Assembly (NCBI GenBank): GCA_963971535.1 | Contig: OZ020587.1 | Coordinates: 156,717,877 to 156,781,876 of the forward strand | Direction of reading: 5' to 3' | DNA length: 64,000 nt | Source of the DNA: Notolepis coatsorum | Lineage: Eukaryota > Chordata > Actinopteri > Aulopiformes > Paralepididae | In this document: piece by piece, positions 2,293-45,000 of the stretch | Layout of the letters: each line of letters begins with the position of its first letter | Position numbering within the stretch: the first letter of the stretch is position 1 | Made by a program: the position numbers and the translations under genes | Notes under the pieces: model-generated | Database searches by the model: none | The model's input: the letters and a program-made list of their open reading frames with translations, nothing else | Told to the model about the DNA's origin: nothing

Positions 2293-2450
2293 TCATTTGA
2301 TGGAGACCATGACCTTGATGTACTGAAGTGCGCTGTGTGCCGCGTCGTTGTGTGCGTTGCCGCAGGAGATGCCCGTGCCGTGGCACACGGTGACCGGAGA
2401 GGTGGAGAGCTCCGCCAGGCACTGGTACTGGCCGTTCACCGTCAGCTCAT
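2293..2450 (-). CDS. prkra: prkra exon 8 (last coding exon, stop TGA)
   Basis: 158 nt. The acceptor is a pyrimidine tract ending CTCGGCAG at 2451 on the minus strand, entered in phase 1. It encodes the second half of dsRBD3, from [16 protein letters not shown] through [20 protein letters not shown] to VMVSIK and TGA at 2293-2295. No convincing AATAAA signal was fixed downstream, so the 3' UTR length is unknown. Confidence 0.93.
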
Positions 2451-8400: not shown

Positions 8401-11400
8401 ATTCAATATGCAGCGCACTCCTCCCATCACATCCAGAGACCACCGACTGTAACATGAGAAGGATCACTGTGGTGGTTTTGAATGGGGGGGAAATCTGTAA
8501 ACACTAAAGATGGCGGCAGCGACAAAGAATTTCTGCAAAACAAACGTAAATTAGTTGTTTAAATAATAATAATACAAAATTATTAAAAATATCGATATTT
8601 AGGCCCGATTTATCGATTCTTCCTAAATGGCATATGGTCTCAGCCTTAACCCTTTCACTGCCGCACACTACCAAACGGTTAACCCTTTCACACTGCGACA
8701 ATACACAGAAGGTTAACCCTTTCACTGCCACCCAACAGAAGGTTAACCCTTTACTATCACACTACCGTCGGTAGTGTGATAGTAAAGGGTTAACCTTCTG
8801 TCGTGTGGCAGTGAAAGGGGTTAATGTAAGTCGGGTTATGTTTTGGTCTCACCGATGTCGAAGTATGTGACCTGGAAGCCCTGCTCCTTGACCAGCTCCA
8901 GCAGCATCTGGATGTAGTCTGTGTTGGGCACGCTCAGGGCGGCTCTCCTCAGCAAGGAGATCTTGTCCGCGTTGGAGTTCCGCAGGGTCTCAAACCGGAC
9001 GCTGGGCTTCGGGGTCTGAAACGTGGGGTCAAACGAGACAAGCGTGAGAGAGCCACACCAACACCTATAGGTCAAAGGTCACATAATGACTTGTCATAAC
9101 TTAGGCATAATTATATAAATGAGAAGAAAACATCACAATAAATCAAGAAAACAAAACACCATGAAGTCCAAAATAAAATGTTAAATAAATAAATGAAACA
9201 CTCCCAGACATACCCCACGCGAAGTTAAGGGAAAAACTCACTAAAAACCTAGCAATAGGAAAAAAGTACCACAGGCAACGTGGAGGTGAGAAATCACAAT
9301 TGACATGCGCTATGCGTCCCATCAATCGATCGATAACACGTGATGAATTAACACGTTGTTAACACTGTATACACTGGATGTAATTTTCTAAAATCCTGAA
9401 TACATTTAAAAGCAATGCATAAAGTATATTTAAACCAAGAGAGAAGGAAAGTATAATTTAAGAGGGTTATGTATTCTTAAAACATGTAAAAAGGTAAGAA
9501 CTAATGTAAAAGCTAGATGTGTTTAAATTTTGGGAGTTAAATTATGGAATAGCCTTAGTGACGGGTTGAAGTTGTGTACTTCTCAGGGGAGATTATTTTT
9601 TTATTATTATATCTTGCAGCATATTTTACGTTTTTTTCTTATATTAAAATATATTTATTTTTTAAGAATTTGTAAAGGATAGGCAAAAATAAGGATGTGC
9701 TTCAGCCTATTCCTTTTTTTCGGTCGTTGTGTGTGAGCTTGCCTTTCTTTTCTTTTTGTAAGTCCACACGGGCGTGTGTTTTTGATTTGTATGTAAACAA
9801 GACCGAAAAATAAACTTCATTCACTCATTCATTCATTCATTAACCATTTCACTGCTGCAATACCAAATGGTTAACCCTTTCATTGCGACAATACACAGAA
9901 GGTTGTGTATTGTCAGTGTGAGTGAGAGCCTGTCCTGGAGCACAAACACCGCCTCAGTGATCGGGAAAGCTCAGCAACGCCTATACTAATTTGAAATTTG
10001 AAATTTTATTTGAAGGATAAACCCCTTGATATGCTATCTCGTTTTCGAGGGGGTCCTTAACATAGGATACAAAACATACAATACAATACATAACAAAACA
10101 AAAAACAAGACAACAAATGCACTTATACACTGACAGACGCTCTCCCAAGCTCACTCCCACAATCCACACTGATTCCTCCCAAGAGGATCACCAATAAATA
10201 TATATATATATATATATGTTCCCTTATAAAACAAACAAAATTATAATTTGATCTGAAAACGACATTTAAGCCCTAACACAGTAAATCAATAACAGGTGCA
10301 AGTAGTCTGTAGATGAGTGAACAAAGATATCTTGAATAACCGGTAAGAAGTAAGAGATCTGAGTGAACTAGGCAGTTTGTTCCAATCAGCTAGTGCTTTA
10401 TATTTAAAGGCAAGTCGACCGATAGCTTTGATGGTTCGAGGTATACTAAAGAAAGGAAGATCCGTGTGTCTTAAATTATAAGTTGAACTATATGGTGTTA
10501 AGAACTGCTTTAGATAGGGGGGATAATTAAAGTAAATACATTTGTAAACAAAAAGCAACCAATGAAAATGTCTTCTGAATTGGGGAGAAAGCCAGTTTAA
10601 CAACTCAAACATAAGACAGTGATGGGTTCTATAAGGACACCTCAATATAAATCTGCAAACACTATTATAAGTAACATTTAAAGGACGGAGATTTGTTAGT
10701 GTGGTGTTTTGATAGACTATGTCTGCGTAATCCATTATTGGAAGTACCAGCTGTATAATGATTCTTTTCCTAACCTGAAGAGAAAAACAGTTAATAGAAC
10801 GATACAATATTCTCAGGCTACAATTAGTTTTCTTCATCACAGCATCAATATGTGACTTGAAGGTGAGTTGAGAATACTACCTAAGGGCCCGTGTCGACCG
10901 GGGACGTTTTATGAGTTGTCAGCTCCTTTCCGTCATTCATTTCTATGCTACAGACGCGACAGGCGCGCTCCTTTTCCCAGCACCGCGCCTCGCGTTTTAG
11001 CGCTCTCGGCGGCTAGCGTTTTTGGGCGGAGCGCTCCCAGCGCCTAAAGTTGAAACTAGTTAAACTTTTGGAGAGGAGCGCCGCTCATCAAGGTAACTTA
11101 CTTTCGACCGACCAATCAAAATCGAGCAAGTGGCGGAGCCGCGAGACGCTCTGAGCATGCATATTTTAGCTTTTTTTCGACCGACCAATCAAAATCGAGG
11201 AAGTGGCGGAGTCGCGAGACGCTCTGGAAACGCTCTGAGCATGCATATTTTTGCTTTTCAAAGCGGTCCGCGTTGAAAAAAACGTCCCCGGTGGACACAA
11301 AGCCTAAGGAAGCTGAAGCAGGCTGGCCTGCCACCAAATCTCTAGGGCTATACCGAATGCTTCGATCATAATGTTGACATTCGAATTTGCTGATGACACA

Positions 11401-14400: not shown

Positions 14401-17400
14401 TTTCCTATGTCATTCCACTTTATTACACATAACTTTATTTATGTATGGACTTTAATGTTTAGATTTTTCGTCTGGATTCCCTGAGTTAATACCAAAGTCT
14501 GGTGAAAATTTCACTTGAATGGCCACATTGGAAATATATTTACGGGACAAAATGCTGATGTGTTCAATACTTATTTCCCCCATTGTATGTGTTACATGTA
14601 TATTGTACTACGGTCTGTGGGAGCTCCCCTGAAATTTCGTTGTATACTTGTGTGCAATGACAATTAAAAAGTCTATTCTATTCTAAGGTTAACCCTTTCA
14701 CTGCCACACAACAGCAGGTTAACCCTTTCACTGCCACACTACAGAAGGTTAACCCTTTACTATCACACTACCGACGGTAACAGTGTTCCGAGACGCAGGT
14801 CGAAGGTCAACGTACCCATGTGATCTCCGAACAGCCCGAATGACTCTGTAGCTTCGTCACCATCTTCTCCGCAGCGGCTTTCTTCGCCGCCTTTTTGGAA
14901 TTTCCAGACGCTGTCAGAAATATTATTAAGACAAGCTTCAACTTCAAATTACTTTAATATTTTCCTTTCGGAACTTCATTTGTGCAGTGGTTAAAAGACA
15001 AAAACACACAGGCACAATACATAGACACTCACCACTATATATAAAAAAAAAAAAAAACACCAGCTTCGTTAAAACTACCGTAAAAAAGACCACTATATAA
15101 AAAAAAATAAAAGGACCATAATTTTCGGACTATAAGCCGCGCCTTTCCCCCAAATTTTTTGACCCTTCGGCTTATATAACGGTGCGGCTAATCTATGGAT
15201 TTTTACAGCTAACTGCCACTAGGGGACCTCCTAAATCTATGGATTTTACAGGTTACAGTACACCACCTTTAACTCTCACTCGCTCCTCTCCCACAGGCAC
15301 ACAGCTGCTGCAAGTTAATAAATGGGAGCTTCCTCAAACAGCCATCTCTTTCCCGACAATCCCCCCTGCCTACAAACAAAGATCACGTGACGCCGTCGTG
15401 TCACGTGAGACAAAAAAATGGAACGACTAATCAGAGGCCACGCTCCAGGACGCACTCGCAGACACGGATTGGGATATGTTTCGAGGAAGTGCCAGTGACG
15501 TCAACGAGTACGCAGATACCGTTGTGAGCTTCATATCAACACTCGCTGATAGTATTGTCCTCACGAAAAAGGTGCAGGTTTTTCCAAACCAGAAACCGTG
15601 GGTGGACAGTACTATCAGAGCAGCCCTGAACTCTCGCACCACTGCTTACAACCTGGGCAGAGTCAGGAAATATGGAAGAGTACAAGGCTTCAGTATATAC
15701 TCTGCGCAAGGCTGTTAAACTGGCTAAGAGGACATATGCTGATAAACTGGAGACACAAATGGTACAAAACGACACAAGAGGCTTGTGGCGGGGACTGAAG
15801 ACAATAACTGACTACAAAGTCAGCGCCCCCTCTATGTGAGACTGTTGTTCATTGACTACAGCTCAGCGTTCAACACCATAGTCCCCACCAGACTGGTGGA
15901 CAAGCTGATCGAGCTGGGTCTGAGCTCCGCCCTGAGCGCCTGGGTACTGGACTTTCTGAGCGAAAGACCCCAGGCGGTCAGGGTGGGGGGTCAGACCTCC
16001 AACACCATCACCCTGAGCATCGGGTCCCCCCAGGGCTGTGTTCTCTGCCCCCTGCTGTACTCACTCTACACACACGATTGTGTGGCCAAGTTCAGCTCCA
16101 ACTCCATAGTGAAGTTCGCAGACGACACAGTGGTGGTGGGGCTGATGTCGGACAACGACGAGAAGGCCTACCGGGAGGAGGTTGAGGTACTGGAACGCTG
16201 GTGCCAGGACAACAGCCTGCTCCTGAACATTGGTAAAACCAAGGAGCTGATCGTGGATTATAGGAGAGGACAGCAGGAGACACACACACCACTGATGATT
16301 AACGGGGCTACGGTGGACAGGGTGAGCAGCTTTAAGTACCTGGGGGTCCACATCTCAGAGGATCTGACATGGTCAACACACAGACACAGTCGTAAAGAAG
16401 GCGAAGCAGCACCTCTACCACCTGAGACAGTTAAGGAAGTTCAGAGTATCGGGGAAGATACTCCAGTCCTTCTACTCAGGAGCTGTAGAGAGCATCTTGA
16501 CCGGAAACATCACTGCCTGGTATGGAAACAGCACGGCACAGGACAAGAAGGCCCTACAGAGTGTGGTGCGCTCAGCCGAGCGTACCACGGGTATTGCACT
16601 ACCTCCCCTGCAGGTTCTATACAACAAGAGGTGCAAATCCAGAGCCTGCATAATAATGAAAGACCCCCACCACCCCAATAACAGCCTGTTCCAGCTGCTG
16701 AGGTCAGGCAGACGCCTGCGAACCCCAGCTACTAGGACAGAGAGGCTTAGGCTCAGATTCTTCCCCCAGGCCATCAAAGCCTTGAACAATGAACACCGAG
16801 TGCCACAGAACACTTAACTATCCACACACAAGCACACATGAGCACACACACGACACGCACGCTATGCACGCTCACACACTAGCAGCCACTTTAACATGAG
16901 CGGGCACACACTCATGCCGCACACACCCACACTTATGGCCAAAAAGAAAGGCCACTTTAAATTAGTATAAAATCAGTAACAGTGTATTGCACTACCAAAG
17001 CTGCCTAGCATGTCCTATATGCTCTGTAAATAAGTACAGATACCGAGATGTCCCACCATGTTACCTGTTTATTGTACAATGTTGTTTTTATTGGATTCTA
17101 TTATATGTTGTACCACTGTATTGCACATCGTTGCGGGCAAGACCACCCGCATTTCATTGTATACTTGTATGCCGTGACAAATAAAACTCTTGACTTGACT
17201 TGTGCACGAAACCTTACATATGGTAATTAAACATTAAAACACCTGCAGCTTATAGTCCAGTGTGGCTTATATATGTACACATCATTCAATTTAGCTGCTG
17301 CGGCCTATATTCAGGTGCGGCTTATAGTGCGAAAATTACGGTACATTCAAACTACAGTACTTAAAGCATGATATATTAAAATCCATGTGGAGCAGTTCTA

Positions 17401-20400
17401 TATGTATATAAATAATAGTGGTACAGGTGATATGTGTCCATCAGGTGGAAGGAGGAGTCTATTTTTAAGTAGTCCAAAGTCCTGGGGGAGGGGGGGCAGT
17501 ACGGCCTCCACCAGACCTAGGTGTTCAGCAGTCTGATGGAGGTTGGCACGAGCAGAAGGTCATGTGAAATCCTTCCACTTTCATTCATGTAATTTTAGGA
17601 ATAACGTTTTGTGTTTTCTTTTTGCATAAAATACTAATTTGTATCTGATTATTCGCAGTATTAATATTATTATTGATGATATATTTCCAACATTAAAATC
17701 TATAAAAAAAAGACTATTAGCAGGTTTCTGAGAAAATAAAAGCAATGCATAATAAAGTGCCGACAAAGAATGAGTATAAAAATAAGACTGTTGTAGCCAA
17801 TCTGATGATTTTACCGTGGTTACTTCATTGTATGTGTTATTGTGAAGGTGTTATTGACTAATTAGCTGGGCAGCGGGCATAGGAGGCGGGGCTCAGATGA
17901 TCTCGGGCACAGCCTATTTGTAGGTGTGTCACAGGTGCGCAGCGGGAGGGAATTGGGGAAACGTCACAGGGAAGCCACACAGATTTTCAACCATGTGTGT
18001 TTTGTTTGTTTTCAGTTGTTTTGAGTTATTTTCAGGTTTATTTTGCAACACTAGTTTATTTGTCTAAAGTTACAGTTTAAACACAGAGTTTATGTTATGC
18101 TTTGCTTTATCCACCCTGCAAGCGAAAATAAAACTTTTTAAATGCACTCAACGAGACGACCTGATTTACTATCAACAGCACTACGCGTTGGAAAGAGCTT
18201 CGTACCATATTCCCTCACTGGCATCTTTTTGTTGTTCGGTTGACCTTATATAAGAACAATGCAATAAAATAGACACACATTAGCATAAAAAAAAAAAGTG
18301 CAATAGCGTGGTGCAGTAAAATAGTTCTCATCTACAGTAACAACAATCACAGTTTGGATGTGATGAGTCCGAGCAGCAGAGTATTAAAATGCCAAGGTGA
18401 AGACGTTTTTAGAATTGGAAATATAAATTGAAAATATTTAGAGATCTAGCCTCCCGAATGTCCATAGGGTAGGGTCTTTCATAGCTTAAAAAAAGCGTAT
18501 TCTTATTAGATTAATCGAAGTATTAATCAACAGATTTAATAGATTATAAAACTCCACCCCTTCTCTCGAACCTGCAATCTCAAAAGGTTGAAAAGCAAGC
18601 TGTTGTGAAGGGCCAGATTAAAGTTGAGAATCTACATTTATTGTTTTATATACTTTGTATATTATTTATATATACACGGTATATCCCTTTAAACCTGCGT
18701 TCGAACCATAGTAATATTCGCTTTCCTTATGAATAATGCCCCCTGACGGTGGCGCCAGGCAGTCTCGCACTCAGACAGGTGCAAGGGGCGAGTTTGGGGC
18801 AAGTCAGGACATGCCCTTGGCAGTGTATTGATTCAGGACCAAGCGGTTAGGTTTGGGACTAGAAAACCACTTAAGTATATATGCTGGCGCAGGTGCGCAC
18901 AGCAGAAGTTTGTCTAAGCAAGCAGTGTGACAAGTTCGTCTAAGCAAGCAGTGTGACAAGTTCGTCTAAAGCAGCAGTGTGACAAGTTCGGTAACAGTGA
19001 AGTGAGCAGCAGTGCGTCTAACAGAGCGTGGAGAACCACGTGCGAAGGGAATAGTAAAGTGTCAAGAGTTTAATGCAGTAACGTCAAGTTCGACCTAATC
19101 TAATGTGAAGTAAATAGTCGTTCATTTATTGTATATCGTGCAACCACAGTTCGTTCGTGTGTAGCATTGGACATGTGCACAGGAGAACCGGCGTCTGCGA
19201 TTGCAGAACCATTACTGGTTGGATTATATTGATTTGGAACGTGTTACCCGGAGAAGAGCATCGTTGATTTCCACTATCGTTTGGGATTCAACCTCGTGAG
19301 GATTACAACTCGGGCTGGCCTCGTGGACGGAGGCTGGCTAACTGTCATCAATGCTATCGAGCATTTGGATTACAATTATTGCTTTGCTGCTGATCAAGGG
19401 ATTTACAAGGACCGACTCCTGTACTTGGAGTCTCTTTATTCTTCATTGAATCAGACTGAGTATCCGAACATTCCTCTACCCTCCAGGCCTTACACCCCGG
19501 AGGGAACCCATTGTCTCCAGGCGGTATCAGCGTTGCCTTATATAGTTGCTATTATACGACAGGTGGTGTCAACTTAGACCCATCGTAGGATTCCTGCTAT
19601 TCTTAGTGACTCATGCTACTGACTGACTTTACGCATATTCTTCGCCATACAAGCGCGACCCTAATTCTCATTCTGTAACCTAATGTTGCATAATAATAAA
19701 ATACCCTCAAATACTATTTCTTTGTCAATGCCGTGTTCTTGTGGGTGTTCACCATCTATATTTGATGTACTGTCTGGCCAGTAATTAAAGTACATAACTA
19801 GCAGTGGTTTAATCTATCACAATCTTTAATACAGTCAGGGTTTTGTAACCCCTCAGTTACACAAGCGTTAGTGATTAGAGGATCAAGAAAAGAGATTGGT
19901 CCATAAGAAGCACAGCCCTGCACTTCGTTCCACTGCTCAACTCAAGGGCCTTTTGGAAACATTTAAGTCCCACCTCAAACCCCACCTGTTCAACCTGCAC
20001 ACTAGGGCTGCAGCACGATTCTTGCTAAAATGTGAATCACGATTTTTCTCTCTAAGAATTGAGATCACTATTCTCTCACCCGATTCTTATTTTTTCAATC
20101 AAAATCATTTATTGCACTCTCTTAAACTTAAACATAACATATATGAAAGTGCTTGACTTAAACTTAAACATACATGAAAGTGCTAGACTTAAACTTAAAC
20201 ATAACATATGAAAGTGCTCGACTTAAACTTAAACATAACATATGAAAGTGCTTGACTTAAACACAACATATATGAAAGTGCTTGACTTAAACGTAAAAGT
20301 CTCTTGTAACATACAAAATAAGTAACTCAAGTCAGAATCGTCATCATTTAAAAGTAAAACGTTTATAAATATTAAAAATTATAAATAAAATAGTCATAAT

Positions 20401-23400
20401 TTAGAAATGATCGCATAGGTCTATGAATCGAGATCGCGATCTTTTTTCGATTAATCGTGCAGCCCTACTGCATAGTGCATAGTTACCATCACTCCCAACC
20501 CTCCAACCCCTGCATCACTTACATTTACACATCTGTACACACCTATATATTATTTATTTTCTATTATAGTTATTTATTATTTTGTCTCCCTTTGTAGTAC
20601 CCCCACCATGTGCTGCAATGCAATGGCTATATAAAACAAATGTATTACTATCATCACCACCACAGATAACAGCAGAACCTGTGAGTAACATCCTTACCGG
20701 TCTCCGACAGAGACTCCATGCGACACGTGACGGTGAACTCTCTCTTGTGAGGCGGTCCGGCCTCCATCAGAACCGTGTATTCGGGGAGACGCCAGCCTCT
20801 CTGTAGCGCCAGCTCCTGTGAGGGAACGAGGGAACGTTATTCGGGGAGCCGCCAGCCTCTCTGCACCGCTAGCTCCTGTGAGGGAACGTTATTCGGGGAG
20901 CCGCCAGCCCCTCTGCAGCGCCAGCTCCTGTGAGGGAACGAGGGACCACAGAGCCTGGCCTCTTTTAAAGCAGGCCTGAAAACCCATCTATTCCAAAAAG
21001 GCCTTTGATTGCTAGCTTTTTCTTTTTTTCTTGTTATTTTTTTATTCATCTTTTTTTGCCGTTGTCTTTAATTTTCTGTTTATACTATGTTTTTTGATCT
21101 ACTTTTCTCCTTTTTTCTGTGATTTTTCTCCCCATCCCAATTTACCTCTTGTGGCTATTCTCCCTCCCCTGTCACGCCCCTTTTCCAAGATGGCAGCTCC
21201 ATGTTTTTAGGCTGTGTGTTTATGCGATTTTATGTCTTTTAAATGTGTTTTTTTTATAGCTTTTTATGAGTTTTTATTGCTAAAGCTTGCTTGATATTGC
21301 CTTCATTTATATACTGACTGGATTTAGTCTGAAAATCTGCTTGGATTACCTGCTTGGATAACAAACAAGCCTGCCAGGAGCAGCCAGCTACCACCAGGCC
21401 AGGCCCAGGCTCCAGCAGCAGCCAGTCACCACCAGGCCAGGCTCAGGAGCAGCCAGCTACCACCAGGCCAGGCCCTGCAGCAACTCAGGCCAACCGGGCT
21501 GCACCAGGCCACCAGGCTAGTAGTAGCCTAGCTGCTACCAGCCATCACCACCAGGCCAGCCCCAGCCTACCAGCTACCAGCCACCAGGCCAGGCCCAGGC
21601 TTCACCATCAGGCCAGGCCCAGACATCACCAGCCCAGCTACCACCATCAGGCCAGGCCCAGGCTTCACCATCAGGCCAGGCCCAGACATCACCAGCCCAG
21701 CTACCACCATCAGGCCAGGCCCAGGCTTCACCATCAGGCCAGGCCCAGGCATCACCAGCCCAGCTACCACCATCAGGCCAGGTCCAGGCTTCACCATCAG
21801 GCCAGGCCCAGGCATCACCAGCCCAGCTACCACCATCAGGCCAGGCCCAGGCTTCACCATCAGGCCAGGCCCAGGCTACACCATCAGGCCAGTTTAACTG
21901 TTTAACTGTGTAGAGGGGCATTTCTTGTACTGAAATACCACACAGGGTTAGCACACTGGATCCATCTGAACAGCTGTTTCAGCTGGAGCATTTTATAGAC
22001 AAACATTACGACAATATCAACATGTCGCAACAGAAGCCTGTGAAACTTAACATTCAGACAAAGTCACAGAAGATTACAGACTGTATTAAGCCCAAACTGA
22101 GTAAAAGATCACGTTCTGACATTGAAGATGCAGAGGAAGCTTCATTGGAGGAAGCGCTGACAAGAGAGGTTGACATGAATCTAACATTACAGGCCATCAA
22201 TAAGATACTTGATAAACTGGATATGTTGGACTTGATGATGCAGGAAATTAAGAGCCTCAAAGAAAGCTTGGAGTTCAGTCAGAGACAAATTGATGAGCTG
22301 GTCAAGGATAATGCTGAGCTGAAAGGAAAGGTGGAATACATGGGAAACAAAGTAGACATAATTGAGATAGACAACAGGAAGTTGAAGGAATCTCTTCTGG
22401 ATGTACAGTGTAGGTCTATGCAAGACAATCTGGTTTTTACAGGGATAGCAGAGAAGGAGAGCAAGGACTGTGAAACAGTCATAAGGGAGTTTATGTCAGA
22501 CCAGCTAAGACTGCCTAGGGACACTGTTCAGAACATCACCTTCTCTAGAGTACACAGAATGGGAAAACCCTCAGGGGACAGACCACGGGCAACAGTGGCT
22601 CGTTTTGAGCATCACCAGCAGAAGGAGCTTGTCAAGGGTAGGGGCAGGGAGTTAAAGAACACCACCTTTGGCATGAACGACCAATTTCCTGCCGAGATCA
22701 ATGGAAGACGTAAGCTATTATATCCTATCATGAAAGAACATCGAAGCCTAAACAAACGTGTCGCCCTTGTAGTGGATAGACTATATATCAACAACCAACT
22801 GTATAGGGACTCCAGTATCACTCCCTGGTTATTCTGAAACCCATTGAGACTATTGCTTTATGGTTGGTAGGCCTACTGATACTTCCTGTATTAAGCTAGG
22901 CTTGCATAAGGGTTTGGTTATAGCTCATATCAATGTGTGTAGCCTGAGAAATAAGTGCTATGAAATTGAATGTATGGTCAAAGCTAACTGGATTAATATC
23001 CTTGCCATCTCTGAAACGCACCTTGATGATTCCTTCTCTGATTCTGCTGTAACTATAGAAGGTTTTAATATTTTTAGAAAAGATAGAAACAGGTTTGGTG
23101 GGGGTGTGGCAATCTATGTTCAGAATCAATTACCTGTCAAAACACGATATGATCTGATGAAGGACAACATTGAAGCTATCTGTGTGCAGGTTCACCTGCG
23201 CTATCTCAAACCAATTCTAGTTTGCAGTTTCTACAGACCTCCGAGTGCAAATGCTAATGTTAATGATTTGTGTGATATGTTCGATAGGATATCGGACGAA
23301 AACAGAGAAATATTCTTACTTGGGGATATGAATGTAGACTGGTTGGGAAAGCCATGTACCAATAGGAACAAGGTGCTCTCTATATTACATACTTGTAATC

Positions 23401-26400
23401 TGTCACAAATTGTCAATCTTCCCACTAGAATAAGTATAGATAAGGATGGTAGCATTTCATCTACATGTATTGATCATATTTATACAAACGTGCCAGGCCA
23501 ATGCTCAAAGGCGGTCTCTGTTCCTGTAGGTTTCAGTGACCACAACATCATAGCAGTCTCCAGAATGACGAAGGTCCCAAAAGCCAAAGCAAAAATTATT
23601 GTCTCACGGTCATATAAGAGTTTTAATGTAGAAGGTTTTATTAATGAAATGTCGGGTATAAACTGGGAGGAGGTATGTTGTGAGGATGACCCAGAGGTTG
23701 CACTGGACTTATTTATGTTGAGGTACATGAGTGTAGCAGATAAACATGCTCCATTAAAAAAGTTCACAGTCAGAAACAAATCAGCCCCATGGATAGATAG
23801 TAGCTTAAGGATTTTAATGAATGAGAGAGACATAGCCAAAAAAGCATCAGTGTGTTCCAGTTCTGCAGATGACAGACAAAAATACCGTTCCTTACGTAAT
23901 CAAGTCACAAAGTTAAATAAGGTGAGAAAAAGGGAATATTTTAAACAATGGTTATATGATGTGAGAAATGGTAAAAATCTATGGAATGTTTTAAATCAAA
24001 TTATGGGTAGAAAATCCAATGTCCGTACACCTTTTGTTGAGTCATATGGAATTGTCCTAACCAAACCATGTGATATTGCCAACCATTTTTATGTAAGTAA
24101 GATATCTCAGCTCAGACAGGGACTGCACATCTCAAACAATACAAAATCAAATGACATAATTAAGAATATCATAATGAAAGATAAAGGGTGTAAATTTGAT
24201 TTTAAACAGGTTGAGGTTAGTGATATTGAAAGGTTACTCCAGGCTCTACCTGACAGCAAGTTAGCTGGCACAGACAACTTGGATAGTAAATTATTGAGAA
24301 TTACTGCTACGATCATAGCAAGTCCAGTGTGTCATATTATTAATAGATGTATACAAGTGGGACTATGTCCAAAGAGATGGAAGGAGGCTAAGGTTACTCC
24401 TTTACCCAAAGACTCCAAATCAGTTTTTAATGAGGGCAACTCCAGACCTATAAGCATTTTACCAGTTTTAAGCAAAATCATGGAAAAGTGTGTTTTTGCA
24501 CAAATCCAAGAATATTTTCAGTTTAACAGTCTGGCTACAGAGTCTCAACATGCATACAGATCTGGTCACTCCACATCGACTGCTCTAGTTCAGATGACTG
24601 ACGACTGGCTCAGAGCTATTGACAACTCCATGATAGTGGGAGCTGTGTTTTTAGATGTCAGTGCTGCATTTGATGTGCTTGACCATTCTCTCTTGATTGA
24701 TAAACTTAAATGTTATGGTTTTAATCCCCTGGCTTTGATGTGGATGCAGAGTTATCTGTCCTCCAGATCTCAGCAGGTTTATTTGAATGGCAGCCTATCT
24801 AGTAGTAGAAGTTTGGAGTGTGGTGTTCCACAGGGGAGCTCCCTAGGGCCTCTGCTCTACTCAGTGTTCACCAATGACCTACCGTGGGCTACTAAGAATG
24901 CCAAATTGGTTCAATATGCAGATGATTCCACCTTGTATTATGCTTCTCCATCAAATGGTATGCTTAATGAAGTCCTGAGCAGAGAACTTAATGATGTGAA
25001 TGATTGGATAGTAGCTAACAGGCTTGTACTGAACATCTCTAAGACAAAAAGCATGGTGTTTGGATCGAGGCATGGGTTGTCTTGTAACCCAAAGCTTATT
25101 TTAAATTCATGTAACTCCATCGTTAAGCAAGTTGAAAGCATTAAGCTCCTGGGAGTGACACTGGATAGTACTCTATCTTGGTCAAACCACATCACTAACA
25201 TTGTCTCAAAGATGGGAAGAGCTGTAGGCATTGTTAGAAAATGTGCTTCTTTTGTTGATCGTCCTCTTCTACGTCAGATTATTCAGAGTCTAGTCCTGTG
25301 TCATGTTGATTATTGTTCGGTGATCTGGTCATCTGCCACCAAAGGTGAGATCAGGAGACTACAGGTAGTCCAGAACAGGGCAGCACGGTTGGCTTTGGGT
25401 TGCTCATTAAGGTCCAATGTCAACCGTATGCATGCTGGTCTCTCCTGGCTCACAGTTGAAAAAAGGTTATCGTCTAACTCACTTGTATTGTGTAAATCAG
25501 TCATTAACAGCAAGACTCCATATTTTGTGTTTGAGCAACTTGTTTACAGAAGCTCTATACAAGACCATAATACAAGAGGGGCCAGAAATGGCAGTTTGTA
25601 CTCCCTCGTCCTAGAACCAATGCTTTAAAGCGGTCCTTTATTTATAGGTGCATAACACTCTGGAACAACCTACCTAGTTATCTCTACACTTTTAGTAAAT
25701 AAATTTTTAAAAAGAAACTCAAATCTCAATTACAGTTGTTGCCTTAATGTGTATTGCATTTGTGTATGGGTTTTTGCCTATTAGCCTACAAGTTCTCATT
25801 TTGTATCTTTTAAAATGGATATTTATTGTATGTTTTTAGTTAATTGTTTTGTTTTTTTATTTCCATCTATAGCATCTGTGAAAGTATCTTATTTTGCTAT
25901 ATACTAAATCCTTGTTTTTATCTTTTGTATTGATCTATGCATTAACTGTTTTATGTATCGTGTTGTGTGGACCCCAGGAAGACTAGCTGGGAGCCATGGC
26001 ACCAGCTAATGGGGATCCTTAATAAAAACAAAACCCTGTCCTGATCGTTGCTCGCATATTCCCTCCACTGGCCGGTTGCAGGGATAGAAGCCCATCACAT
26101 GTCCCCTCCGATACATGTAGAGGCAGCCAGTCACATCTAGTATGACGGCCGGCCCAAGCCGGAGGCAACGCCGACAGCCGGATTCGAACCCGGTGTCTCT
26201 TGCGTTGGTGACAAGCGCAATGTCCGCTGCGCCACCCAGCCATCCTTGTTTATACTATGTTTTAACTATGTTCAATTTTTTTTTTATTAATAATTTTTTT
26301 TTAACTGTTTTAACCCTGTAGCACTTTGGGATCCTAGTGAACGAAAAGTACAATACAAATACAATTTATTATTATTATTAACCCATTCTCTGCCAGGCAT

Positions 26401-29400
26401 TGTACCCATCATTGTACCCTCTCTGCCAGCGCTATAAGTCTATGGAGATGTTCACCTTCTTTGCAGGGCTATAACTTTTTTAATTGTATTGCTAAATTGA
26501 CATTACTATGGCCCATTCAACATCAATTATCTATCGTTCAGGATGTAGGAACATTTTACCTTTTCATTCACACATTCATACTAAAATACCGTCTAGAGCA
26601 GGGGTGTCAAACTCATTTTCACAGAGGGCCACATCAGCATTATGGTTGCCCTCAAAGGGCCAAATACCGTATAAATGTTCATGTAATGTAAAATAAATGT
26701 AGCTACTCATTTACATATTGTTAAACATGTTGTTTCTGTATTTATTACTTATTCAAGTTATACATATTGCATATGCATTTGCATAGATGTAAAAATATAT
26801 GTTAGCTTATGTTATTTTAACAAATAATTTTAGTTTATCAGAACCCCATATTACTCCATTAATCAATGAGCAAACCATTCAAGTAAATAACAAAGAAGAA
26901 GATCATCAAATACAAGCTATGACATTAAGTTTGTTCAAAACCTTTTTGTCACAGTCAAGAGGGGCAGAACTAACAACTGAGCTGCAAAGAACACGTGGGA
27001 CAGATGTAGCAGATGTTACAAAAACAAATGGCTGCACACAACCTTGCAGAGGCCATACATCCAACTAATAGAAGATAGTTTAATTAACTTTAATTAACAG
27101 ATTGCAGAATGGGTACAGTACAGTACAGCTCAATACACACAATTGTTAAGGGGATGCAGACCAGAGAAAGACTTTCGACTTGTTTACATCAGGGTCCACC
27201 ATTTTCAATTCGTAATGAAATTGCTATTATGTGTCTGCATGAACACACAACTGTAACTGTACTCAAAAATAACAAAATAAGGGTTGTCTCAGTTCACAAC
27301 TATATTGGTCAAGTTTTGGGTGGGACTTGTTTGTGTCCCTACAGCTTCTTATTCAATTGAGCGAGATGCTCGATTATGTCACACAGCCAGTTTGCATCCG
27401 ACAGTTCAGACAATATTTCTTCAACCCTTTGTTACCTATTCCGCCTGGATCTTTTTTGTATTTTGGGCTGTAAAATTGTCAAAGAATGTCTGAGGAGTAA
27501 GTGCGTTTGGCTTTTTTCCTTTGTTACTTCATCAATACCTCAGATGTTCAACATACATGTATGTGTAAGAATGTGTAATAACTAAGGCTGTCAAAGTTAA
27601 AGCTTTATTAACGCATTAACCCACAATTATTTTAACGCCGCAATTTTTTAACCCAATATTAATGTAAAAAAGAAAAAATGACCGACGTTAAATGATTCAT
27701 GTAGTATGGGTGATATATTGATCAGAGCAGTTTGTATCGAAAATGATAAAGAAAAACGCTGAAACTCACCCCAGTCTCCTCGTAGCGTTGGGCGATGAGA
27801 GTGCAGCAAACAGATCCCAATTATGGGATGTTGATCGATGCGATCCATTTCCGGTTTGTATATTACTAATACACGTCCAAATCATGTTGATTATTGAGTT
27901 ATGGCAAAGATCTATATCGACGGTGTCTGTATTGAGCCCCGGGACGATAAGCGAGTGGCCGGATGAAAATAGGGGACGGATCGAGCACTTCCGGGCACTT
28001 CCGGTTTGGCAACTCGTCGATCGGCCACGAGGTGGCGGTATTGAAGTGTTGCAGAGTTGTGATGGCCCAGACAGCATCACCCAAGACTCCGTGGGTGAAA
28101 TATGAATACCATGACGAAAATATGAAATATTGATCTCAAAAACGCCTTACGGAGTTATTGGCAGACAACGCATGGCGGAGAAACCCGCCGTAACACGTGA
28201 ATGGCGGAGAATGGGTTAACAAGGGAACCTCAGTGCAGACATGAAGGAAGCAAACAAGGGAACGTCAGTACAGCGTATGAAGCGTATGCGTTGTGTTTTT
28301 CCAATGTCAATATAATGACATGCATTACTGTCAAAAGCAGTGTACACACTTGTACACACACGCTAGAGGTGTCACAATGTTAACACTTTGGCTGCCATGG
28401 GTTAAATTCATTATCAACCGTAGGTTGCGGGCTCTATTTGTCTATAGAGAAAGTCCCCTTCTTTGCAGGGCTATAACTTTTTAAATTCTATTGCTACATT
28501 GCCATTATTAGGGCCCATTCAAAGTCCTATATGTATTGTTCATTGTGTAGCAACGTTAAACTTTTTCATTCACATATTCATAGTAAAGTATGGTCTAATG
28601 TATAAGTATGTTTTCATCTCTTTCTGCAGCTTTCTCCAGAACGTGATCTATAGCCCCAAATACATTATATTGATGATGCAATACAGTTTTATGGCAATCA
28701 GCGCGATATAAAAAATTCCAACTAGACGTACTTCTAGAAGTTACTACACGTCATCTGATGTTGACCGGATGGGCTAGGGGGCGTTTATAATTCCGTGGGC
28801 AGCGTTATACCAATCATCTAATGTGGGTCAAATGTTGATAATAGCAGTTAGTATCGAAGACGGTAATTTTACACGCTAAAACTCACCCCAGTCTCCGCGT
28901 GCCGTTGGGCGATCATCGTAGAGTAGAAATTTTACCATTATGGGATGTCGATTTACCCGGTCCATCTCCAGCTTGTATAATGGTATATACGTCCAAATCA
29001 TGTTGTTTATCGAGTTATTGGCAATCGATCGCTATGTAGTGTGTCGAGATCGAGTCCCGGGACCTATAGCCAGTGCCCGGAAGTAATACGGCCGACCAAC
29101 ACAACCTCTACGGCACTTCCTGTTAAGCGATTGCGCCGATCGGCCACCAGATGGCGCTCCTGAAACGCCAGAGAGCTCAGTGGGTCCTCCTGGTGGATCT
29201 CAGGCCAGGGGAGGGGAAATATGAATCCGATCCCAGATTTTTGAAATATTGATATTAAAGACGCTGTAAAACGTCTTCGGCAACTTGCGCATGGCCGGGA
29301 ATGACGTGTTTAGGCGTTTTCCGGCAGCCAAAGTGTTAAGAATCATTTCAAATATTCAGAAATAAGTTGTAAGAAACATTTTAAATTTGATATTGTTCCT

Positions 29401-32400: not shown

Positions 32401-35400
32401 CTGTGACGTTTTCAAATGGCCGGGGGAATCCTGTGTCCCACCTATCCTGATTTGGTGTAACCCCCCCCCTGATACGACACCATAGAAAGCAGAGCCGTGA
32501 CACCAGTTGCATGGCGCGCCAGATGAAAGCTGCACGCCAGCCAAAAAACTGGTTTTATTTCACGGCTCTGGCTTATGTGTGAAAAAACTTGCCACCTGCT
32601 ATTTTTATCATGACCCTTAGGCAAAGAAAAAATATCAAGCTAAAGAGAGGGACTCAAGGCCCTTGGTCATAAGCCACATATGTACAGCTCTGTAGGCTAA
32701 CACCTAGACCAGTTGTGGACTCAATGCTACGTTTACCTAAACGTTACATGACACACCACAACTCTCATCATACAATAAAAAAACCCAAGTCCACTTTTAC
32801 TCACGTAAGAAAAAATGCTGTCTTTAAGTAGAGAAAGACATAAGCCTTGGCCAAGTGCTAGAACTACAACCTTGCTAAGCTATACACAATAGCGACCAAC
32901 ACAATTTTCAAAGAAAACTGCACAACTTCAAGCAAGAAGATGCCCCAGCATTTGTAGATGCGAGTTCACATAGCACACGTCGTATCCCCCAAAATGCAGT
33001 GAAGTAACACACGTTTTGTTAAACAAAAACATTGTTATTAACATTCGGGGGGGGGGGGGGGGAAAGGAAGAGTGGGTCATAGTGTAATGTCCTACCTGAC
33101 CCTCTGAACGCAGGATGAAATTGCCGCAATAAATGGCTGGTCCACCATGTTGACGAGGCCTCTTGCTGGCGGGGCCAGAAGTGGCGCCGAGTCCGACTGG
33201 AGCTTCTCTCCGACGCTTCACCCACATCCTGCGGCCGGTCATGGAACAGGCAGACGACATCTTCTGCCAGAGATGACGCCGAGTCAGAGTGTTCAGGGCC
33301 CGCTACCTCCCCACGGCTAACGCCAACAGTTAGCCTAATAGCTAACTGGCTAACAGCTAGCTCTTACCCGCTATCGATAGCCACCAGCTAACGCAGTAGC
33401 AAGCTAAAGCGGCTACTACTGAAGCTGTGTAACGTGAGGAATAGCGATACAGGCCAAACACTTCAGACAGCCGACTGTCTCTCCTTCTTTTTATGCAAAA
33501 GAAAAAAGGGAAGGCAACACACGTCCCTCTCACAGAACGGTGTTACCAGATACAGCGGCACCGGCAGCAAGCTCTGTTGTATGCGGGCTGCAGCCGTCTT
33601 GAGCTCGGAGATATTCTCCTAATGAAACACCAAGCTCGCATCCTCCGTGCCGGGAGCTTTCGTCTTGAAAAGCGGGGCCAGCGTGGTGGCAGAGGGCATC
33701 CGTCTTGAGAGACCTGGGACTCGAACCCTAGACTCGGAATCACAGCCCCAGGAAAACAAAGCTACGAACTCTGAGGAGGAGCACTGTTTTATCGTCGGGC
33801 ATCAAACAAGAACCCCCTCCGTAACGAAGGGATTCTTGCTTGGAGCCGACCTTACGCAAGCTGCGCAGTTGCCCCAGCACAACTGACACACCTGAGGCTC
33901 ACGTCGCAAAACACCACCCGCCCTAGAGAGAACGTCAGCTCTCTCAGCCGACCGCCTCTCGCGGCATAGTATCCAGCTGCATAGCCGGAGCACAACGCCG
34001 GCGGGGGAACTGCTCAGCGACGCGTGCCCCAATGCGAAGCGCCGGTGGAGGTCAGAATGATCATCATCTTCTAGACTTCTCCGGTGGTGACGACATTATC
34101 CTTTCTTTCTCCCGTAAATTAGTGAGAGAGGGAGAAACAAAAAAAATGCCAACACAGCTCCTATAACTAAACTAACTACTTTAACACTAAACTTAAAGCG
34201 GTGCTATGACACAGGCTTCGGCGGTGAAAGTAGGGAAGGAGCCGTTAGTATGGCCATGACCCCGCCTATATAGGAGCGGATGTGGGAGTGGTCAGGCAGG
34301 TGGGCAGGTCGTACACGAGGTGAAAAATGTTCATGATAGAATATGATTAAAGGGACAGTTCCAGTAGAGCAAAGCGTAAGCTATAACGAAATATAACAGC
34401 CATGGTCGAGACTAGGGGTGGGAATCACCAGAGGCCTCACGATACGATATTATCACGATACTTAAGTCACGATACGATAGTATTGCGATTCAAAATATAT
34501 TGCGATATTAATATTGCGATATATTGCGATGTATTACCTTTTTTCAACTGCAAAGTAAAACTGTGTCAACATGTTTCAGCTAATAAAATGTGTGGACTAC
34601 TGTACTATTACAGGTAGGTACTGAAATGAACAATGCAACTTCCTTATAGAATCTTTTTTTTTTTGCATAATAAAATATCGATACTTGGCGCCCTTTTATC
34701 AATACCGTATGGATGTTTTCCCCCCCACCACTAGTAGAGACTCACCTGCAGTATCCCCACTGAGTTGGGCTGGTCACTGTTGGGCTCTGCAGCGACGCCG
34801 TTACTCTCCGTCTTTATGTGAAGGCTCCTGCCGAGGATCAATACAGAGTTCATGACCCTTCATAAAACAGCGGACATTAAAACGTTTTTTTTAGAGGCAT
34901 CCCATTGATTGTGGTGAAAGGTAGAAGTGTGCAATGACTATCAGGTGCACAGTTGTGGCAAGGATCAAAACAAACAGAATACCTGACACATATTAGATTT
35001 GATTCAAATGTATAGTCATCATACAGCACAAGTAATACAGTACAACGAAAAGTTTGACATCTAACCAGAGTGCAAATGTAACAGTAAAGTGCAATAGTAA
35101 TATACAATGTACACAGGTGATTAAACTGGGTATAAGATATATAAATTAGTACTAGTAGTGATGCCCCGATCGATCGGCCAGTGATATTGTCTACTGATAT
35201 TTGGAATTCCGATAATTCTTCCTAGTCGCCGATTGCGAAAACCGATCGATGACTCGCGCGAAAAACATGATCCAATTCTCAGCGGAGTCGGAATGAGAGC
35301 ATGAGAGAGCGAGTGTGTGTGAGAGAGAGCGTGTGTGCACGAGCGTGAGAGAGAGCAAGTGTGTGTGAGAGAGAGAGAATGTGTGCACGAGCGTGAGAGC

Positions 35401-36071: not shown

Positions 36072-39000
36072 TTTTTTATTATCGGAGCTATCAATACTTT
36101 TATCGGGTTTATCGGGATGACGTCATAATTGCTGATATCGGCCCGATAATTATCGTGCATCCCTAGTAGTAATATACGCTACACTGCTCCAGGTGTTTTA
36201 ATATGTCTGGCTAATATCAGCAATATTCCTGGTATCTCCTAATTAACACACCCTTCCTGGACTATATATATTTATATATACACTCAAAACTGTGCATAAT
36301 GGTTCATACTTCACTGTTCATACTTTTTGCACATTACTGCTTAAATGCACAGCCCTGTTAAATATTCCATCCCACTGTATTTGTATTTCTATTCTAATTA
36401 GTGTATATATACTACACGCCGTGCACAATTGTACAGCCCTAAGATCTTTTTCACGTAAATTAAGATAAGATAAGATAAGATAAGATATTCCTTTATTGAT
36501 CCCCTTGGGGAAATTCAGGCATCATAGCAGCATGGGGGGGGGGGGGGGGAGGGGTACAGGTAGTAAAACAACACAGTATACAGGTAGTAAAAGACAACAC
36601 AGGCAGTGTAAACAATTTGATCAATATGGTCAATATAATTTACTATCTGACTAGCTGAGGAATATTCACATTATTCACAGTGTCACATGAGGTGCAGTAT
36701 GCAAGAGGTAGTGTTATAATAATTTACTATCTACTGAGTATACATTAATCAAAGTACCAGGGTAGTCTACTTTGTCCCCCTTGGGTTCCTATAAGTCCCA
36801 GGTCAATGTCTGGTAGCAGTCGCTGTCGCTGCCCCCTGTTGTGGGGCCTGGAGGCTGCTAGTCGCTGCCCACTGTTGTGGAGCCTGATGGCCGCTGGTAT
36901 GAAGGACTGTCCGAGGCGGTTAGTTGAGTGTCGGGGGGGGATGAGTCTGTGGCTGAACGAGCTTCTCATCTTGACTAGCTCGTCGTACAGCCCGATCGGG
37001 CCTTGTTATGATACTCAACCAGCCGATCAGCCTATGTGGCTACTTAGACGAACACGGTTATTGGTAATTAATAATAAGAAACGACGCCCCCCCCCCCCCC
37101 TTTCATGCATACATGCTCGAGGATCGTACCGATCATATGCAGTTTGAGTTTAAACTGTAGCTTCTGTATAACGGAAATGCCATTGGATATAACGTTAGTA
37201 GCTATTAGCCCTTTATCTAGCCTTCCAGGAAATATCCTAGACCAAATGCCGTATATAGCTTATATTCACGGCACTATAAAGTGAGAACGTATTGATGAAA
37301 TTTTTTTCTTTAAGCCATTTTGAAGGGACGGTTTATGGTCTCAATTGACAATGAGAATGGACAGATAGCAATACTATAAAGTATAGATTTAGCTCTACAA
37401 ACAGCCCCAAGTCTGTTTACATATGCTGGTCGTCTAGAGTGATATTAGACTCATCCCAGTGGCCGCCAATGTGTTAAGCTCTGTCCAAACTAACGACAGA
37501 CATGGATACTTACGCTGCTCCGGCTTCTATCTGGAGCATGCTCAGGGCAGCCTCTGCCGCCTGGTGCTTTGCAGACTTTTTACTGGGTCCTTGACCTGGG
37601 ATTACATGAACACAAATTAATGAATGAATGATTTTAATTTCGGTCTTCTTTTACAAAGAAAGAAAACAACGAAAAAGGTGTAGGCTGAAGCCGAGGCTTA
37701 TATTGCCTACCCCTTTTTTTACATTACATTATTAATAATAAAAGATTATTATTAACATAATTCAGTACATCATTTTGCAAAAAGGTTACGGAAATGTTGT
37801 TTTAGTGTACAGTTATACAATCAATCAATCAAATGTATTTATATAGCGCATTTAGACATGACACTTGTCAACCAAAGTGCTTCACATAGCTAAGAACAAA
37901 GAAAAGTATGGAATAAACAGAAAATAAAAACAACCAACGGATAGACAAGGAAACAAAACAACACGTCAACAAGCAAGACAAGAGTTAAAGTGAGTCAGGG
38001 AAGGCGGTATAGGTGGGTTTTGAGTTTCGATTTAAAAGACTTGATGGAGGGGGCAGATTTAATGGACATGGGGATGCGTTTCCAGAGGTCAGGGGCTGCG
38101 ACCACAAAATACTTGAAATTGGACCTACGGGTGGTTAAGAGACCCTTGTCAGCCAAATACACTTTTTTTTATCCACCTTTTCTCCTGTTTTTCTCTGATT
38201 TTCTCCCATCCCAATTTCGTTGTTATGCCAATTCCCCCCCTCCCCTTACTAGTCATTTCTCGGATGTGCCCCCCACTGGTCGGTCTAGGGAGTCCTGAAG
38301 TCTTATCAGATGCTTCCTCCGTCACATAGGAGACAGCCAGGCAGCAACCTCTTTTCACCTGCCAGCGCGGACTCTCATTGGTGAGGTGTAACGTGTGGGA
38401 GGTCACACTACCTTCAACATACCCCTTCTTTGCTGTGCAGGCGCCCTGACCGACCTGTAGGAGTCGCTGTTTACAACGACCACCGGCTTCCCTCCCGCTG
38501 ACTCTGCCAATTGAGCCAGTATGACGGCCGGCCAAGCCGGAGGCAACGCTGACAGCCGGATTCGATACCGGTGTCTCTTGCGTTGGTGATGAGCGCTTAG
38601 ACCGCTGCGCCACCCAGCCGCATACACATTTATATTTTTTTGTAATCGTTATATTATAATAAAATATTATTAGGATTATAATAAAGTTTGATATTTATGT
38701 ATCACCTTATATTTGAACATTTTCTTAAATGTATGAATCGAACTACAAATTTTTTATTCGTTGTCAGTTATTCCACAGGTTTACCCCTTTAACAGATAAT
38801 ATACATCTACTTTTAATATTCATCCTTGCCTTTGTGTTTTTGAAGACACATGTTCCCCTGAGTTTATACTGGCTCTCTCTAGTTTGGAACAACCAATCAC
38901 AGGCCTTTCCATCTAAACCAATATTAGATAACCCTTGTAAGAGCGAAGGATGATCAAAAAAACGTAAAACAGAGTGATTAGAAAGAAATACCTTGAGTTG

Positions 39001-42000: not shown

Positions 42001-45000
42001 AACAACTAAGCAGTCGGAGTAATGGCAAGCCGAAAACGGTCGAAATTGTAGTTATTTGAAGCTTGGATTTTTTTTTTCACGACTGAGGTAGGTAAATAAA
42101 AAATTTTGAGACTAAAGTACCGAAAAAATTTACCGTTGGGTAGTGGTATCGATTCACAGGTACCGGTACCGTATCGGTTCAAATGTGAAAGGTACCCATC
42201 CCTAATCACTACACATTTATAGTTAGTGTAATCAATCATTTGACCTGATGTACACTAGAATGTGCAGCATACCATTCTCTGACGTCTCACCCCTTTATGG
42301 AGGAGGATTGTTGGCATATTTACCTGGGTCACAAAAGAACCAACATAGCATGTTTACAAAAGAGGTGGATTATTCTGGTTGCAGAATGACAGCTCTCACT
42401 TTTTTCCTCATTCTAGTGACTAGTGACACAACTGTCAGGTCTAGCTCGTATACTGCGTTGGACCACTAGCCTAAACTAAATGTATCAGCAATAGTAGTAA
42501 TCATGGATTATGGTCATAGTTCTTGTAATCTTCAATCAAGTCAACTGTAAGTAATGCTTGAGACGTTATCTATAGCCAATGCTTGCATCACCATGGAGGT
42601 CTAAGGTAAATGTGTATCTCATGAACGTACTTTTCCACTGCATATTGTAACCCTCTATCTGCTTCTAGATGAAATATTTGTGTTATCTTTAAAAAACAGG
42701 TCTATTACCTGCTGTGGTAAATCTCCCGCGGCCTAGCCCCTTTCGTGACTGTGAAGCAAGGCTTGCATAAGGGGCTGCCTGCGGCCATCGTCAACGAGAG
42801 TCATTCACGGTCGACTTTGTTTGTCCGAGGTTTCAAATGGGGCGTGGCTTAGCGATAGGTCTATTGAGTCAGTGTGACTGCCGACCAAGCCGGAGGCAAC
42901 GCTGACAGCCGGATTCGATACCAGTGTCTCTCGCGTTGGTGACGAGTGCTTAGTCCGCTGCGCCACCCAGCCGCCCCCAAGCTGCTCTCTCCTAAAGCCA
43001 GAAACCCGAAGTGAAACTCAAAACCTGACATGCCATCAAGCTGGACTTAGACAATGAACGGGAGATTAGTTTACAGGATGTTTATTTTTTTATTATATAT
43101 ATCCAAACTATAATCGATTGTCATGTTGTCCGCTCTGAGACAGAACATGTATACTCAGAATATTCCAGAACATTAGCTAGGCTAGTGGGGGATTACTGTG
43201 ATTAAGTTTGACTGTGTTGCAGAGCATTTACTGACCAACATTGCAGGACGTGATTAGGGTTGGGCACTGAAAACCGGTTCTAATAGGAACCGGTTCCTAA
43301 CTTGAATTTCGATTCTAAATTTCGATTTTTTTTTTTTACTTTTTCTTTTTACTTTAATACCCTAGTTACAGTACAGCAACCAAATTAAACTGTATCAAGT
43401 CAACTGAAAATGTGAATAGTATGATTTTCTTTTTGAAATAAAAAAAAAATAAAAAATCTCCTTCGAAATAAGCTGTGACCTGTTTTGACCTGCACCTCAA
43501 AGAATCGGAATCGAGAATAGTTTAGAACAGGAATCGATATGGAGAATCGGAATCGGAACCGGAATCGTTCAAATCCAAACGATGCCCAACCCTAGACGTG
43601 ATGTGACCTACCTGAAAAATTGGCGTCTCCTACTGTTACGTTGAAGATGAAGCTGGGTTGATGAGCTTCCCCCTCTGCCTTCGCCATCACATACACTGGA
43701 AGATTGCCAGTTTTGGTACCATACTCATGTAGGATTTGTATTGGTGTTTTACCGGGAGTTGGCGTCTGCTGTTGTTGAGTATTCAAGCTAATACAAATAA
43801 TAAAAAAAAAACACACAGACGTGTAATTAGATAACAATGTAGCTCTACATGTTTGACAATTCTAAGGATCAATTAGATTAATAATCAGTTAATCACCCTT
43901 TGTTTATCCCTCATCTACTCTTACTAGTTAGGCTGCTGTCAGTATGGCTTACTATATACCATAGTGTCTTTATACCTGTATCACTGTACATATTAATACT
44001 ACAACTGTATACATCTGATCAGCAGTATCCTCAGTAATACTCATTTATATATTTTATACCCACTTTAATCACCTGTACATTGTATATTACTATTGCACTT
44101 TACTGTTATATTTGCACTCTGGTTTGATTGATTGAAAACTTTATTAACAGATTGCAGAATGGGTACAGTACAGTACAGCTCAATACATACAATTGTTAAG
44201 AGGATGCAGACCTGAGAAAGACTTTCGTCTTGTTTCCATCAGGGTCCCCCATTTTCAATTCATCATATGACACACGACATACAGATGGACAGTACTGCTA
44301 CATCTAAACATTTATGACATACCAGATTTTCAAATACAGTACTGTTTGTGATACTAAAAAAATCCAGAAAAAGAGTGTATATACATTTGACATAGAAACT
44401 GTGCATTGGGGGAGGTTGGGTAGGTGGGGTGGGGCTGTACATTGGAGGTGGGGGGGGGGGACACTGTACACTTCACAGCTCAATACTAACAACTGCTAAG
44501 AGGATGAATCCTAGAAAAAGAGTTTTGTCTTGTTTACATAAGGGTCCTCCATTTTCAATTAATCAAGAATTGATGCCAAACTTATTTTCGTTGTACAAGT
44601 TTGTGCTGTATAATGACAATACATTTTAATCTAATCTCATCTTTGACGTGCCATTACACACTAGTCTATGTTGGGGCTGCACCACTACTACAGATACTGG
44701 TATTGGATATCAGGCCCATACCAGACTCAAATAATATGGTATCGGTATTGGGAGTAGGCTACCACTATTTCCCCAATACTAAAAAAAAGTCACACATAGA
44801 AGCATTCTACATTATGAATTGAAAATGGGGGACCCTGATTTAAACAAGACAAAAGTCTTTCTGTGGTCTGCATCCCCTTAACAATTGTGTGTATTGAGCC
44901 ATACTGTACTGTATTATGCAGTACTGCAATCTGTTAATAAAGTAAATCAATCAATCTTGTATATCTTTTTTTGAGAAGTCAAACCACTAAGCAACTTCTG

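Follow-up and report, generated by a model that had tools for sequence, protein, structure and literature searches.

A triplicated 3' splice site and its putative decoy acceptors in the prkra gene of Notolepis coatsorum

Introduction

An mRNA whose stop codon lies far enough upstream of the last exon junction is a target of nonsense-mediated decay (NMD). In 1986, Reed and Maniatis reportedly worked with beta-globin intron 1 in which the 3' splice site had been duplicated; these sites were reused in a further study (PMC5389562). As for truncated forms of PACT, the product of the mouse Prkra allele lear-5J, a frameshift at codon 178, is PACT truncated in dsRBM2, which remains able to bind PKR and to inhibit its activation, and was detected in mouse brain, not in embryonic fibroblasts (PMC11625895).

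The locus described here lies in a stretch of 64,000 nucleotides of the Notolepis coatsorum genome (contig OZ020587.1), referred to below as the window. On the grounds of its sequence, it holds a real and natural triplication of a 3' splice site, that of prkra exon 5, and adds one more case to a known class of events. The three acceptors are designated A, B and C in the direction of transcription, C being the innermost.

Materials and Methods

Exons 2, 3, 5, 6, 7 and 8 of prkra were placed with the human PACT sequence and the splice consensus, and exon 4 by pattern; exon numbering is that of the human gene. The acceptor and branch-point matrices are approximations of mammalian data. All positions are those of the window.

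Results and Discussion

The Host Gene

The gene that carries the triplication is prkra, on the minus strand, as judged by a C-terminal domain nearer to PACT than to TARBP2. A hand-joined first query gave E values of 2e-25 against double-stranded RNA binding protein A (1di2) and 2.2e-24 against TARBP2, values so close that this query leaves the choice between prkra and tarbp2 undecided. It is the protein encoded by exons 7-8 that decides for prkra, as it matches PACT (8zu6) at E 1.9e-35 vs E 4.2e-21 for the best TARBP2 chain (7zpj). Besides exon 5, which is listed with the triplicated block below, the following exons were located:

43612..43768, minus strand, prkra exon 2 (dsRBD1), start uncertain; from the human PACT sequence
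37514..37595, minus strand, prkra exon 3; from the human PACT sequence
34746..34827, minus strand, prkra exon 4; by pattern, ends in phase 0 with CTG CAG/GTGAGT
14816..14910, minus strand, prkra exon 6; from the human PACT sequence
8853..9015, minus strand, prkra exon 7; from the human PACT sequence, with PACT match
2293..2450, minus strand, prkra exon 8 with the normal stop; from the human PACT sequence, with PACT match

The start of exon 2 is uncertain because its acceptor (43768) reaches a matrix score of only 0.06. Joined through acceptor C, exons 2-8 give an open frame of 284 aa with a single stop at its end (exon 1 was not located), and dsrm and related domains are recognised in the product. 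With an open frame and dsRNA-binding domains, the gene looks maintained, which implies that C must be usable; the located exons of prkra are, as far as can be read, intact.

The introns of the gene also contain open frames on the plus strand. Frames of 224 and 640 residues at 3858-6756 (+), between exons 7 and 8, resemble what we take to be gag and pol of a Gypsy-type element, while those at 13370-14300 (+), between exons 6 and 7, presumably correspond to fragments of a Tc1-type transposase. A 926-residue frame at 22848-25628 (+), inside intron 4 and antisense to the gene, appears to contain reverse-transcriptase-like sequence.

The Triplicated Block

We found three diverged direct tandem copies on the minus strand at window positions 20778-20945, each composed of the intron end and 38 nt of prkra exon 5. 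A triplicated intron end and exon 5 start had been described in the sequence-only reading; the three aligned copies confirm it, with the exonic part common to all being 38 nt, not 36. Taking the copy at 20778-20833 as the reference, the one at 20838-20893 is 84% identical over 56 nt and the one at 20890-20945 is 95% identical. The start-to-start spacings, in plus-strand order, are 60 and 52, and Tandem Repeats Finder assigns the block a score of 245. The block is arranged as follows:

20698..20815, minus strand, prkra exon 5 from acceptor C, 118 nt, start of dsRBD2; donor CCG/GTAAGG begins at 20697
20816..20836, minus strand, acceptor C, CGTTCCCTCGTTCCCTCACAG; AG at 20816-20817, matrix score 12.9
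20837..20839, minus strand, stop codon TAA where B meets C; its final A (20837) is a candidate branch point for C
20838..20875, minus strand, copy B, first 38 nt of exon 5, reading 12 residues and then TAA; from the sequence copies
20876..20888, minus strand, acceptor B, CGTTCCCTCACAG, with AATAA before it; AG at 20876-20877, score 8.4
20889..20891, minus strand, stop codon TAA where A meets B, in the exon 4 frame
20890..20927, minus strand, copy A, first 38 nt of exon 5, reading 12 residues and then TAA; from the sequence copies
20928..20948, minus strand, acceptor A, TGGTCCCTCGTTCCCTCACAG; AG at 20928-20929, score 12.1

The first exon base is thus 20927 for A, 20875 for B and 20815 for C. 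Taking at least two in-register copies of an intron end and exon start as the mark of a tandemly duplicated 3' splice site, the block belongs to this class. The best ungapped 42-nt match to a neighboring sequence within 1 kb reaches 39/42 at exon 5 and 19-22/42 at the six other located prkra acceptors, and we do not see chance as an issue for the triplication.

Across the 38-nt exonic parts there are three mismatches between A and B, three between A and C, and four between B and C, and this level of three to four differences suggests that the repeat has persisted for some time. The final 13 nt of the intron (CGTTCCCTCACAG) are identical in A, B and C; further out, A and C have 18 nt of the intron end in common, and one 8-nt step is missing from B. 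The junction GAATAACG is present in both extra copies. The alignment gives three copies directly, but the changes between them are too few to put the duplication events in order: the 8-nt step and exon positions 6 and 10 link A with C, and positions 12 and 27 and the junction link A with B. We also considered that the triplication could be an assembly or sequencing artefact. Each copy carries private substitutions and B does not have the 8-nt step, which would be unexpected from read stutter; these differences argue against assembly stutter, leaving it most improbable rather than impossible.

As for the frequency of such events, 16 tandem-duplicated regions were counted in the window, this block included (lags 25-150, at least 35/40 matches, simple repeats not removed), and by a rough estimate it is not very unlikely that a tandem duplication would hit one of seven acceptors. 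When the window was searched at E 1e-3 for further copies of the block (20690-20945), only its own three-copy matches were returned; the same threshold gave two other matches in the window, of 85-87 nt and 76-80% identity, for the flank at 20946-21360. At the gathering threshold, 0 matches to known RNA families were obtained over 19000-22000, and in viral_contigs, searched for relatives, eight stretches fit a pattern, none of which was confirmed. A 63-nt minisatellite of five copies with a 97% match occupies 21570-21883 and so precedes acceptor A, as the gene is transcribed, by about 640 nt. A reading at 20955..21011 (+), on the other strand and no more than about 20 nt from where copy A ends on its outer side, is one that we take to resemble LINE tails, and a similar LINE-tail-like reading is present at 19962 (+).

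Reading Frames From the Three Acceptors

Only C yields an open frame through exons 2-8, while A and B run into a premature stop. Since exon 4 ends in phase 0, the TAA that follows LPE is in frame in both extra copies: from exon 4 onwards, both readings take the form ...GILQELA(L/V)... and end with LPE and then TAA. In this respect the earlier description, which had both extra copies reading LPE and then TAA in the correct phase, was borne out. Exon 5 is shortest through C, at 118 nt, vs 178 and 230 nt for the extra acceptors. The distance from the premature stop to the last exon junction is 449 nt for A and 397 nt for B, and both stops lie beyond the limit of about 50 nt before that junction. 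The proposal that use of an upstream acceptor would truncate PACT in dsRBD2 and probably lead to NMD fits these distances under the general decay rule. The mRNA made from A or B is accordingly predicted to be an NMD target truncated in dsRBD2; the part retained would hold one dsrm domain (residues 9-73), with the cut early in dsRBD2, at about human residue 144. As the lear-5J product retains activity, a stable truncated prkra product need not be inert. Skipping of exon 5, considered as a rescue route, was rejected as it results in a frameshift and an early stop.

In-frame stops at such distances behind two intact acceptors, together with 13 terminal intron nucleotides identical across the three copies, are what one would look for in regulated poison splicing, in which A and B would be chosen in particular tissues or under particular conditions so that NMD reduces PACT. 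A switch of this type had been put forward for the locus, but the analysis did not support it. Both stops belong to the same junction sequence, so that two stops need only one event, and in 612 of 1800 simulated acceptor-spanning duplications at exon 5 an in-frame stop also arose within the extended exon. Furthermore, 13 unchanged bases are unsurprising when the 38-nt exonic parts differ by 8-11%. We consider a regulated switch quite unlikely.

Acceptor Strength and Branch-Point Geometry

With the acceptor matrix, the scores are 12.9 for C, 12.1 for A and 8.4 for B, while the six other prkra acceptors fall between 0.06 and 8.3. Among the 795 AGs in 20700-34699, C ranks first and A second; of the 3895 AGs on the whole strand, 0.08% equal or exceed the score of C, 0.13% that of A and 1.41% that of B. 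The pyrimidine fraction over -25 to -4 is 0.77 for A, 0.73 for C and 0.68 for B. Each copy retains an AG and a pyrimidine-rich tract, as in a duplicated 3' splice site, and the view that the extra acceptors are intact holds for both, with scores of 12.1 (A) and 8.4 (B) in the approximate matrix. RNA folding that would hide A or B showed no clear difference among the copies (mean unpaired probability 0.49 for A, 0.62 for B and 0.60 for C). A cassette microexon defined by a donor between the copies was tried and rejected, the best GT there scoring 1.4 vs 9.3 for the true donor; as the copies have no good donor between them, a new intron is not to be expected.

The strength of A and C, the two top-scoring of the 795 acceptors, leaves room for a kinetic brake, in which U2AF and U2 sitting on A and C together would hold up the excision of intron 4 (13.9 kb) and less PACT would be made without much use of A. 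Pre-mRNAs with two 3' splice sites can bind U2AF or U2 snRNP twice, and splicing in vitro is inhibited when both sites are occupied at once (PMC5389562). Yet, this support comes from in vitro work on a different intron, and exon definition in vivo may remove the competition; we regard such a brake as unlikely.

The branch-point candidates of C are the A at 20837, 22 nt upstream, and the A at 20841, 26 nt upstream, both in the junction CCCCGAATAACG; the former is the final A of the upstream copy's TAA, within GAATAACG. For B, the near candidates in the same motif are only 14-18 nt away, and in front of acceptor A the stretch from -28 to -5 is free of adenosines. The adenosine 29 nt from A scores -0.9, a poor match; at 38-39 nt the adenosines reach 2.6, and AGs follow them 4-12 nt downstream. 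AGs less than 12-15 nt from the branch point can be bypassed (PMC1431707), so the candidates at 38-39 nt may still serve and A is weakened rather than disqualified. The best branch scores in the 18-40 nt range are 2.6 for A, 2.5 for B and 2.5 for C, values equalled by 27-28% of AGs on the strand; elsewhere in prkra, exons 3, 4, 7 and 8 have better ones (3.1-5.3) and exons 2 and 6 worse (1.8 and 2.2). As these scores do not separate the copies, a branch point in the junction is a hypothesis drawn from its spacing. Upstream of B and C, the top score, 5.8, goes to the CTCAC that belongs to the acceptor before, at 56 and 64 nt, and past it AGs occur 4-21 or 4-23 nt downstream.

A reading in which C is the main acceptor has to face the score of A, near that of C (12.1 vs 12.9), and its pyrimidine fraction, the highest of the three. 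Scanning from a branch point upstream of A, the spliceosome would, moreover, reach the AG of A first. These same properties favor the alternative that A is used most of the time, in which case the allele would be a hypomorph or null and the remaining gene intact by inertia. We find this quite improbable, given that seven exons still form one open frame, that no adenosine is present from -28 to -5 of A, and that the distal site alone was used in the in vitro test (PMC5389562). First-AG scanning itself does not account for every NF1 case in one report (PMC7317903).

Proposed Origin and Effect of the Duplication

The explanation that we favor, and hold to be reasonably probable, is that C is the productive acceptor and that A and B are decoys of local duplication origin whose leaky use would end in NMD. 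A local tandem duplication of the minisatellite type would have turned the 3' splice site, together with the opening 38 nt of exon 5, into three copies. C is proposed as the main acceptor because it has the highest acceptor score, gives the complete exon and possesses branch candidates 22-26 nt upstream; going by the in vitro work on duplicated sites, C should be the main acceptor and A a decoy. Use mainly of the innermost acceptor would keep prkra functional. Branching for C may take place in the duplication junction, where the candidate motif is seen and includes the last A of the upstream TAA. Leaky use of A or B is predicted to give NMD-prone mRNA cut in dsRBD2, and splicing may also be slowed by A, an effect that duplicated acceptors have in vitro (PMC5389562). 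The duplication is probably near-neutral or mildly lowers output.

A LINE-like insertion and the duplication may be linked. A more elaborate proposal, which we consider very unlikely, gives the junction TAA a double role, as the premature stop for the upstream acceptor and as the branch point for the next one. The repeat would thereby carry its own splice signals, would have kept the gene going once the former branch region had been crowded by a LINE-like insertion, and would leave a titratable dsRBD1-only PACT that restrains PKR in the manner of mouse lear-5J.

Comparison With Known Systems

Among the matches listed in our literature search, which has most subscription journals outside its coverage, no report of a duplicated prkra acceptor was recognised. 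Like the lear-5J product, the putative isoforms from A and B would be PACT cut within dsRBD2 with dsRBD1 kept; in contrast, the mouse case is a germline coding mutation at codon 178, whereas that of prkra would be a splice isoform cut earlier, at about human residue 144. With poison exons and NMD-coupled alternative 3' splice sites, the locus shares the property that alternative use would bring in a premature stop at a long distance before the last junction, yet it differs from poison exons in having been created by local duplication and in being known here from sequence alone. It also resembles intron gain by tandem duplication, in which copied splice-motif sequence gives new splice choices and premature stops have been noted among the introns formed; here, however, an existing acceptor was copied, and the donor needed between copies was not found.

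On sequence grounds, the locus is a local curiosity. Nature has in effect repeated here an experiment known from splicing research, with one acceptor present in three copies that differ in exon length and branch distance. Transcripts, if they exist, could show which copy the spliceosome chooses in vivo and in what way a gene tolerates a duplication of this type. In build, the locus resembles the duplicated beta-globin sites: in both, 3' splice sites stand in tandem, the upstream one followed by a piece of exon (14, 55 or 205 nt there and 38 nt in prkra). The beta-globin constructs were engineered and contain two copies, while those of prkra are natural, three in number and diverged, with a stop at each junction.
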